64,000 nucleotides of DNA from Pseudomonas sp. GD03919 (GTDB lineage: Bacteria; Pseudomonadota; Gammaproteobacteria; Pseudomonadales; Pseudomonadaceae), in NCBI RefSeq assembly GCF_029814935.1, contig NZ_CP104582.1:1488001-1552000 (forward strand). The letters run 5' to 3'. Within the stretch, counting starts at the first letter, position 1; each line of letters opens with the position of its first letter. The position numbers and the translations under genes were made by a program. This document shows positions 32,558 through 35,690 of this stretch, piece after piece. Under the pieces are notes generated by a model. It did no database searches. It was not told where the DNA came from and worked only from the letters and a program-made list of their open reading frames with translations.

Positions 32558-32610
32558 GTCGCCCGGATGTAATCCGGGGATGAGTGAAGATGCCGCTCCC
32601 GGATTTCATC
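32558..32610. repeat. Left part of a GTAGCCCGG-type repeat split by the IS
   Basis: GTCGCCCGGATGTAATCCGG, spacer, CTCCCGGATTTCATC. It breaks off at 32610 and resumes as CGGGCTAC at 34007. Confidence 0.8.
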
Positions 32611-32713
32611 TGATGGGATGGACTCCTCCTCCCACGGACGGCATCGCAATGTGCCAGATTGTCTATACCTGAGAAGGGTCACCGACAAACGCTGTAGAGA
32701 GGAGGAGTCCGCC

Positions 32714-33769
32714 ATGAATCGTAGCGCACCTACCCACTGTCCGTTGTATTGCGTGGATCTGGCCAAGCATAAATTTCAGGTTCATGGTTATTCGGCCGAC
32801 GGCCATCGCCAACAATGCCTGACGCTGAGTCGCAGCCAGTTCGACAGGCTATTTTGTGAAGAGTCCAATAGTGATTGCCTTGTGGTGATGGAAGCCTGCG
32901 CCAGCAGCAATTATTGGTGCCGACGTCTTTTGGCGTTGGGTTATCGGGTTAAACGAGTTCCCGCTCAATTTGTCGACAAACAGCGCATCGGCAACAAGAC
33001 CGATGGCAATGATGCCGATGCGATCTTTGCCGTCCACCAGGATCGGCGAGTAGGTGCTGTTGCGGTCAAAACGGTTGAGCAGCAGGATTTGTGCGCTCAG
33101 CACCGGCTGCGGGAACTGCTGGTTGGTCAGCGCACCCAGTTACTCAATCAGGCCCGGAGTCTGCTGGCCGAGCGTGGTCAGATAGCGCCACAGGGGCGTG
33201 TTGCGCTGGAGGCGTTGATCCGCCTGGTATGCCAGGAGGAGCCCAATCAAGAGGTGAGCGCCGGCCTGATCGAGCTACTTGAACAGATCACATGCCAAGT
33301 CGCCGGTATCGACGCGCAGATCCAGAGCATCGAAGGCCGACTCAAAGCTGCCAGCCAAGCATCCGTCTTGATTCGGCAGGTACAGAGCATCCACGGTGTG
33401 GGGCTGATCACTGCCACAGCAGTGGTTGCCGAGTACGGTAACAACATCAGCCACTTTGCCGATGCCCGTCAGTTCGCCGCGAGCTTGGGGGTGACCCCCA
33501 GTGAGCGCTCTTCAGGTCAGCAGCGACGATTGGGGGGGATCACTCGGCGTGGCAATCCCTACCTGCGAACGCTGCTGGTACAGGGTGCCCAATCGGTGCT
33601 CAATCACTGCCAGAGACGTGAGGATGCCATTAGCCAGGTGGCTCGACGCTTGCTGGAGAGTAAACGACGCACGGTAGCCGTTATCGCCATAGCCAACCGT
33701 TTGGCGCGGATCATCTATGCCGTGATCAAACACAACACCCCTTATCGGGCTCAGCCACAGCAGGCCTGA
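32714..33769 (+). CDS. IS110-family transposase (DEDD recombinase)
   Basis: 351 residues. N-terminal RuvC-like DEDD domain: Asp in YCVDLAKHKFQVHG, Glu in VVMEACASSNYW, and the Asp pair in NKTDGNDADAIFAVH. The C-terminal transposase_20 domain has QVQSIHGVGLITATAVVAEY and the catalytic-Ser region in FAASLGVTPSERSSGQQRRL with ITRRGNPYLRTLLVQGA. AGGAGGAG precedes the ATG at 32714; interestingly that stretch repeats part of the subterminal inverted repeat. The gene is complete, so the element may be active. Recombinases of this group use a structured RNA to choose their target. Confidence 0.92.
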   Translation: MNRSAPTHCPLYCVDLAKHKFQVHGYSADGHRQQCLTLSRSQFDRLFCEESNSDCLVVMEACASSNYWCRRLLALGYRVKRVPAQFVDKQRIGNKTDGNDADAIFAVHQDRRVGAVAVKTVEQQDLCAQHRLRELLVGQRTQLLNQARSLLAERGQIAPQGRVALEALIRLVCQEEPNQEVSAGLIELLEQITCQVAGIDAQIQSIEGRLKAASQASVLIRQVQSIHGVGLITATAVVAEYGNNISHFADARQFAASLGVTPSERSSGQQRRLGGITRRGNPYLRTLLVQGAQSVLNHCQRREDAISQVARRLLESKRRTVAVIAIANRLARIIYAVIKHNTPYRAQPQQA

Positions 33770-33995
33770 GCCTTAACCCAACAAGGAGGTACAACCGACA
33801 GCGCAACGGAAGATGGAATAAGGATCAGATCCGGCTGGAGAAAAGCCGAGTAGCCCGCAGCCCCATGATAGGGTCGCTCATCCGATAGGCACTCCAGCAG
33901 CGAACGCCCCATCTAGGCTCGGGAGCAACGGCTCCCTTTACGAAGTCGAATATACGGTCGCGTTGATCACCATCTTGCTACTTGCGCCAGAGGAG
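33770..33995 (+). ncRNA. Candidate bridge RNA / seekRNA of the IS1111-type element
   Basis: Non-coding 3' region where IS1111-group elements encode their guide RNA. Stem-loops are visible: CGGCT-GGAGAA-AAGCCG (about 33832-33848) and GGGAGC-CAAC-GGCTCCC (about 33921-33936). Between and after them are short segments matching the target and the element ends. GTAGCCCG at 33850-33857 is the reverse complement of the right flank CGGGCTAC. TCATCCG at 33878-33884 equals the top strand across the target junction. CCCATC at 33908-33913 is complementary to the left end GATGGG, and ATATA at 33950-33954 equals the right end. Inference; RNA ends are not known. Confidence 0.6.
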
Positions 33996-34006
33996 GAGTC
34001 CATATA

Positions 34007-34014
34007 CGGGCTAC
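34007..34014. repeat. Right fragment of the split GTAGCCCGG-type repeat
   Basis: CGGGCTAC, the remainder of the repeat arm interrupted at 32610. Confidence 0.75.
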
Positions 34015-35580: not shown

Positions 35581-35639
35581 GTAGCCCGGATGAAATCCGG
35601 GGCAGCGTATCCAGCTTTCCCGGATTTCATCCGGGCTAC
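35581..35639. repeat. GTAGCCCGG-type repeat, intact reference copy
   Basis: GTAGCCCGGATGAAATCCGG, spacer, TTCCCGGATTTCATCCGGGC and TAC. It shows the uninterrupted form of the site used by the IS1111-type element. Confidence 0.88.
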
Positions 35640-35690
35640 TTCATACGGAAACCAGTCGCCCTCCAGAGCGGAGGGCGACTGGTTTGTGTA

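Follow-up and report, generated by a model that had tools for sequence, protein, structure and literature searches.

Results

An IS1111-group element in the window

The window, a stretch of 64,000 nucleotides from Pseudomonas sp. GD03919, contains an insertion sequence of the IS110 family, IS1111 group, at positions 32611-34006 (1396 bp). It interrupts a REP sequence. The neighbouring genes on its two sides resemble GlpD and FGGY-kinase genes, each scoring below its NCBIfam cut-off. Its features are as follows.

32598-32610, + strand: left half of the REP target split by the element, CCCGGATTTCATC, identical in 4/4 copies
32611-34006, + strand: whole IS1111-group element, 1396 bp, four copies in the genome
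32611-32617, + strand: left terminal extension TGATGGG, 7 bp, the right donor half
32618-32631, + strand: left subterminal inverted repeat ATGGACTCCTCCTC, 14 bp, 14/14 pairs
32714-33769, + strand: transposase/recombinase gene, 351 aa (PF01548, PF02371, NF033542)
33770-33989, + strand: 3' non-coding region, putative source of a guide RNA, from the published IS1111-group position and covariation
33990-34003, + strand: right subterminal inverted repeat GAGGAGGAGTCCAT, 14 bp
34004-34006, + strand: right terminal extension ATA, 3 bp
34007-34014, + strand: right half of the REP target split by the element, CGGGCTAC, identical in 4/4 copies

The transposase has both IS110 domains, PF01548 (the DEDD N-terminal domain) and PF02371 (C-terminal), each above its cut-off, and scores 261 bits against the NCBIfam model NF033542, 'IS110 family RNA-guided transposase' (cut-off 140). 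The SG motif of the C-terminal domain (G..P....SG) is present as GVTPSERSSG at residue 259. The solved chains that match the protein are those of the IS621 and ISCro4 transposases only, the nearest being PDB 8wt6 (IS621).

The ends are typical of the IS1111 group, with 14-bp subterminal inverted repeats carrying extensions of 7 bp on the left and 3 bp on the right. A right extension of 3 bp is the figure for the IS1111 family. The long non-coding stretch 3' of the gene is also characteristic of the group: counted from the stop codon through the right subterminal repeat it spans 234 bases, as against 97 bases between the left repeat and the gene. There is no target duplication, since the empty sites opposite copies L001 and L003 in G623, a genome of the same species, have the summed length of the two flanks. 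Family domains, ends and layout therefore all agree with the initial annotation, which had proposed an IS110/IS1111-group element with a guide region in its 3' non-coding part.

Copies, target and genomic setting

The host genome (4.66 Mb in one contig, here G000) contains four copies of the element, the other three each differing from the window copy by one base. All four are inserted at a single point of the REP, CCCGGATTTCATC|CGGGCTAC. This REP is abundant in the genome: GTAGCCCGGATG occurs 187 times, compared to twice for the reversed control, and there are 39 exact occurrences of TTCATCCGGGCTAC. A closely similar REP, GTAGCCCGGATGCAATCCGGG, accompanied by a REP-associated tyrosine transposase, is described for P. 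mendocina ymp (PMC2817692). The REP may act as a safe site for insertion, as the initial annotation had proposed.

G623 has an empty site of unchanged length opposite both the window copy (CCCGGATTTCATTCGGGCTAC) and copy L003 (CCCGGATTTCATCCGGGCTAC). In P. mendocina EF27, one contig ends in a truncated copy with one difference in 350 bases and a left flank identical to that in the window; G623 has this contig end as well, identical over the 1700 bases compared, which makes P. mendocina the most likely host species. No further close copies were found among 199 and 398 genomes of the genus or 369 genomes of the class, and the only match in a class-wide search at E 1e-70 was the window's own genome. 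A single-protein scan gave no match in viral contigs and one in genome contigs, namely the truncated copy. The window's genome also carries a second IS1111 element, L070 (G000:C1:906061-908880), whose protein is 35% identical and which sits in a different REP type (TAGGAGCCGG...).

Guide segments in the non-coding region

Four candidate guide segments and three predicted helical elements were located in the 3' non-coding region.

33832-33900, + strand: target-binding loop, outer stem arms 33832-33840 / 33892-33900, from arm pairing in 40 elements
33850-33857, + strand: right target guide GTAGCCCG, complement of CGGGCTAC, 8/8, fixed-register covariation
33860-33875, + strand: apical helix of the target loop, arms 33860-33863 / 33872-33875, two-sided changes in relatives
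33878-33884, + strand: left target guide TCATC followed by the target core CG, 7/7, fixed-register covariation
33908-33912, + strand: right donor guide CCCAT, complement of left-end ATGGG, 5/5, fixed-register covariation
33916-33947, + strand: donor multiloop helix, arms 33916-33919 / 33944-33947, around hairpin 33921-33936, pairs kept in 40/40
33950-33956, + strand: left donor guide ATATA followed by the target core CG, fixed-register covariation (ATATA 5/5)

Three of the segments in the initial annotation, GTAGCCCG as the complement of the right flank, TCATCCG and CCCATC (33908-33913), can be read directly in the sequence as it gave them. The fourth, ATATA at 33950-33954, is correctly placed, but the match is longer than had been noticed: ATATACG(G) continues from the right end of the element into the first bases of the target. 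In the predicted RNA the segment at 33850 precedes that at 33878, which is the order seen in IS1111 seekRNAs (top-strand match 5' of the bottom-strand match).

When the non-coding region was shuffled 200,000 times with its dinucleotides preserved, 0.48% of the shuffles contained GTAGCCCG and 2.1% contained TCATCCG. The ordered target pair was obtained in 0.0015% (1.5e-5) and the donor pair in 0.5%; no shuffle had both pairs. The shuffle test is not blind, as its motifs came from the initial annotation, and the independent test is covariation across relatives.

Covariation across relatives

A protein search at E 1e-45 gave matches in 57 of 398 genus genomes, including the window's own. Hits other than the element itself are 34-41% identical in protein. 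Together with the window, 114 loci (L001-L114) were considered; 15 were without clean ends, and the remaining 100 were sorted into 24 groups by their non-coding region. The grouped relatives have many different flanks, including other REPs and attC-like sites. Plasmid relatives (661 records) were all less than 60% identical and were left out of the analysis.

Guide matches were scored initially at free positions, using 41 representatives of the 93 elements that remained when six duplicate copies and L044 (wrong repeat) were dropped. With each element's own flanks the score was 539, whereas permuted flanks averaged 363 and never exceeded 422 in 20,000 permutations. The own flank ranked first of 41 for 14 of the representatives, with ties counted against and with several groups sharing a target.

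In a second test, two conserved helices served as reference points, and each of the four guides was read at a set distance from them in 40 elements from 20 of the 24 groups (those of L044, L054, L090 and L110 were left out), the relatives among them being 33-40% identical in protein. A one-base shift was permitted, for foreign flanks as well as for own ones; this register was chosen after the data had been seen. Taking one element per group, the right target guide matched at 137 of 160 positions (permuted mean 71.6, maximum 106) and the left target guide with its core at 124 of 140 (mean 60.2, maximum 92). The corresponding figures were 94 of 100 for the right donor guide (69.3 and 85) and 100 of 100 for the left donor guide (87.3 and 95). 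For none of the four guides did any of 20,000 permutations reach the own-flank value. The window element itself scores 8/8, 7/7, 5/5 and 5/5.

The two RNA bases that follow the left donor guide (33955-33956 in the window) are the same as the first two bases of the target at 40 of 40 positions when one element per group is taken, and at 74 of 80 across all 40 elements. They equal the element's own left-end dinucleotide at only 27 of 40 positions. These bases thus track the target and not the element's own left end, which suggests that what the second loop reads is the right junction of the inserted element, target bases included.

The guides therefore covary with target flanks and element ends in 20 groups with many targets, which is the test that the initial annotation had called for. 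Identical guides beside different flanks, which it had named as evidence to the contrary, are not the general pattern, although L026 and L100 fit their flanks poorly: both have a right target guide of 4/8, and they rank 21 and 15 of 41 in the free search. The match between guide and flank can thus fail in single elements. The right target guide is also poor in the fixed register in L065 (2/8) and in L099, L111 and L112 (3/8 each), but all four have matches of 7-9 bases in another register, which L026 and L100 do not. The right donor guide of L070 matches its own left end at 3/5.

Two further observations were made on individual relatives. L065, in which the right target guide lies several bases away from the common register, has AG at the junction in its left end, its target and both RNA loops. 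A related group (L006, L014, L015, L017, L019, L020, L039 and L040) is found at sites resembling GGCCARAAG|CGGNCATTC, and some of its guide bases vary together with single-base changes in the flank (AAAAG/AGAAG).

Predicted RNA structure

The two successive loops proposed in the initial annotation, target guides in one and donor guides in the next, are supported by conserved helices together with the guide covariation in 20 groups. For the outer stem of the target loop, the pairing score in 40 elements was 285 with each element's own arms, compared to a mean of 177 and a maximum of 203.5 in 2000 permutations. RNAalifold, run on the 40-element alignment, predicted 10 pairs, of which 6 show two-sided changes. 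In the target loop, the apical helix pairs in 39-40 of the 40 elements, the window element having a C-U mismatch at the second pair. The pairs of the donor multiloop helix are formed in all 40, with two-sided changes at two of the four; the hairpin it encloses (33921-33936) was read from the sequence. The donor guides flank this helix, within the pairs 33900-33901/33960-33961, and this is the donor-multiloop arrangement of IS1111 RNAs. The outer pairs are invariant and so carry no covariation support. The predicted structure fits the published remark that the donor-binding bases of many IS1111 RNAs are predicted to lie in a multiloop (PMC11208160).

Folded alone, the window RNA is no more stable than its shuffles (z -0.76). 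Inspection by eye, with no count made, gave no pattern of the IS621-type 'handshake', in which guide-adjacent bases pair with the incoming strands. No guide-RNA family was recognised between 31000 and 36000 when Rfam was searched with a permissive threshold. The search did give two sub-threshold hits at 35582-35684, to ncr1175 and to Pseudomonas sRNA P6, over an inverted REP pair, which is probably the cause of these weak matches.

Junction variants in REP sites

REP sites were scanned with the pattern CGGATTTCA-gap-CGGGCTAC in the two carriers, G000 and G623, and in G012, a relative without the element. In G000, 36 of 42 sites are canonical, and the others have lost the C (2) or have A (2), TG (1) or T (1) at the junction. 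In G623, 33 of 45 are canonical, with A in 5, lost C in 3, ATA in 2, TGA in 1 and T in 1. In G012, 51 of 52 are canonical, and the single change is one base away from the junction base. Thirteen further genus genomes without a close copy have 125 canonical sites among the 130 matches listed, the others being T (3), G (1) and the single site of G045, a long chance match that was left out. The non-carrier count is therefore 181 sites from 13 genomes, made up of 129 of these 130 listed sites from 12 genomes and all 52 of G012; the listed matches cover 13 of 23 other genomes with matches, at up to about 20 sites each. The T variant was kept out of the footprint classes, because it is also present in genomes without the element (3/181 listed).

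On this basis, footprints exactly at the insertion point are present at 16 of 87 carrier sites and at none of the 181 sites listed for non-carriers (p 5.5e-9). Two events are common to both carriers, leaving 14 distinct ones (p 5.3e-8 against the sites listed). Length-changing footprints number 9/87 compared to 0/181 listed (p 3.0e-5). The footprint classes were fixed after the data had been seen, and the carriers are two genomes, of which G623 is a 250-contig assembly with 3% contamination. A control window placed 3 bases to the right has substitutions at 7/43, 4/37 and 2/53 sites in G000, G623 and G012, and length changes at 0/133; single-base substitutions at the junction itself number 3/42, 6/45 and 1/52. 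Substitutions alone consequently prove nothing, and the case is carried by the length changes (9/87 vs 0/80 in the control window of the same two carriers, p 0.0033) and by the element-end bases.

The bases left at the junction are ATA or A, the last bases of the right end, and TG or TGA, the first bases of the left end; in the remaining class a C is lost. Several of the joins permit 1-3 bases of microhomology (CAT, AT, A). REP sites reading TTCAT-ATA-CGGGCTAC occur in one of 398 genus genomes, at L131/L134 (G623:C6:1334-1354) and L135 (G623:C197:9679-9699). One of the ATA sites is on contig C6 of G623, which is there only 85% identical to the window. The counterpart of the G623 site CCCGGATTTCAT-ATA-CGGGCTAC carries copy L004 in the window genome, and in G012 it is intact.

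Synteny allowed nine of the 14 distinct events to be polarised. For eight, the corresponding position in G012 or G000 is canonical (at L158/L185 the stretch from G012 ends just past the junction); for the ninth, an A at L171, G000 has the element at this site. Opposite its four occupied sites, G623 reads T, A, intact and ATA, the T being at the window's own site and uninformative. Of 16 unoccupied canonical G000 sites with a partner in G623, 14 are canonical there, one has A and one is unreadable. Variants are thus enriched opposite occupied sites with a Fisher p of 0.013 with T and 0.088 without (calculated by hand), or 0.052 and 0.25 by the hypergeometric test, and with four occupied sites this is suggestive only.

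Discussion

The gene family, the ends, the target, the empty sites in another strain, the covariation of guides with DNA and the conserved helices were all observed here. They point to an IS1111-group element whose own two-loop guide RNA directs its insertion into REP, with imprecise closure of vacated sites as a less certain addition; we place the probability of this reading at roughly 0.93. The 3' non-coding region would give rise to a two-loop guide RNA (seekRNA or bridge RNA), of which the first loop would pair with both strands of the REP target CCCGGATTTCATC|CGGGCTAC, and the second with the left extension and with the right end running into the first two bases of the target. Guided by this RNA, the DEDD recombinase would choose and join the sites without target duplication. 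Transcription, the RNA-protein complex, the circle intermediate and strand exchange are expected by analogy with the published family. As the initial annotation had suggested, the element appears to be programmed by its RNA for the abundant REP, to judge from four copies of four at one REP point and from guides that covary with flanks.

The REP might instead be read by the recombinase itself, the matches in the non-coding region being leftovers or chance. Single matches are indeed short, one 7-mer turning up in 2% of shuffles, and the RNA is a predicted one. Four guides at fixed structural positions nevertheless track flanks and ends across 20 groups, and the RNA is required by published IS1111 relatives (PMC11187229), so that we regard this explanation as very improbable.

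Departure of the element may sometimes be followed by imprecise closure of the old site, which would keep 1-3 end bases or lose one; the footprints may thus be end-joining closures of vacated sites. Alternatively, the junction variants may have no connection with the element, having arisen by ordinary mutation or as variant REPs that the REP transposase copied. Substitutions are at least as common in the shifted control window as at the junction, the T variant is found in non-carriers too, the enrichment opposite occupied sites is based on four sites, and there are only two carrier genomes. Mutation of this kind is nonetheless unlikely, given that length changes are confined to the junction and, among the sites listed, to the two carriers, that the inserted bases equal the element ends, and that eight of nine polarised events have an intact counterpart at the corresponding position of another genome and the ninth is opposite an occupied site, which indicates that they arose in place. 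Failed insertions, in which the target was cut and left unjoined, are a possible though rather doubtful source: the A and lost-C alleles require no element end at the site, but ATA, TG and TGA include element-end bases, and one ATA site of G623 is occupied in the window genome and intact in G012. On balance we slightly favour the view that departure of IS1111 elements is not always clean, the open donor site after circle formation sometimes being sealed with small footprints, which in this lineage mark former insertion sites across the REP family. The commoner footprint classes remove the last left base of the target, and could make the site less recognisable to the guide.

No published report of such footprints for IS110 or IS1111 excision was found, in a search whose scope did not extend to preprints and most subscription papers. 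IS110 excision is termed scarless in the bridge-RNA paper (PMC11208160). For IS4321, an IS1111 member, a mobilome study gave 5248 circle-junction reads and zero deletion-junction reads (PMC5001619), and the authors of the seekRNA study left open the question of how circles form without a rejoined target (PMC11187229).

The RNA-guided mechanism and REP targeting are already known in the IS1111 group (PMC11187229), to which this element adds one case. In that study, IS1111 elements, among them the REP-targeting ISPa11 of Pseudomonas aeruginosa, were shown to use a downstream RNA in which the top-strand match comes before the bottom-strand one; it also documents cases in which related elements were naturally reprogrammed. 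ISPa11 is thus alike in its target, its 3' seekRNA and the order of its matches; its insertion point is that described for the P. aeruginosa REP, and the comparison is by description. ISEc11, ISKpn4 and ISPst6 have the same anatomy, with a seekRNA shown by experiment (PMC11187229), but their targets are a short linear site or an integron attC. The 82-nt short seekRNA of ISEc11 is sufficient for movement (PMC11187229), which implies that the donor loop may be dispensable for some steps. Insertion into REPs has been reported for 6/6 copies of ISPa11 and for 7/7 copies each of ISPpu9 and ISPpu10 in P. putida KT2440 (PMC1525189). The latter two belong to the IS110 family and occur only in REPs there, although the REP is another one and they too are likened by description and not by sequence. 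The bridge RNA of IS621 (IS110 group) likewise has two loops, for target and donor (PMC11208160, PMC11208158), but lies upstream with the order of its guides reversed, and IS621 has a CT core at both ends, whereas the window element has TG as its left-end dinucleotide and CG as its target core.

As a natural example of a guide RNA fitted to a target present in many copies, the element is a clean one, and covariation supports each of its four guides. The footprints are relevant to the question of circle formation without a rejoined target (PMC11187229). If they prove to be general, damage to the donor site would be a cost of this class of genome-writing tool and a limit on it, and the footprints could mark past insertions.
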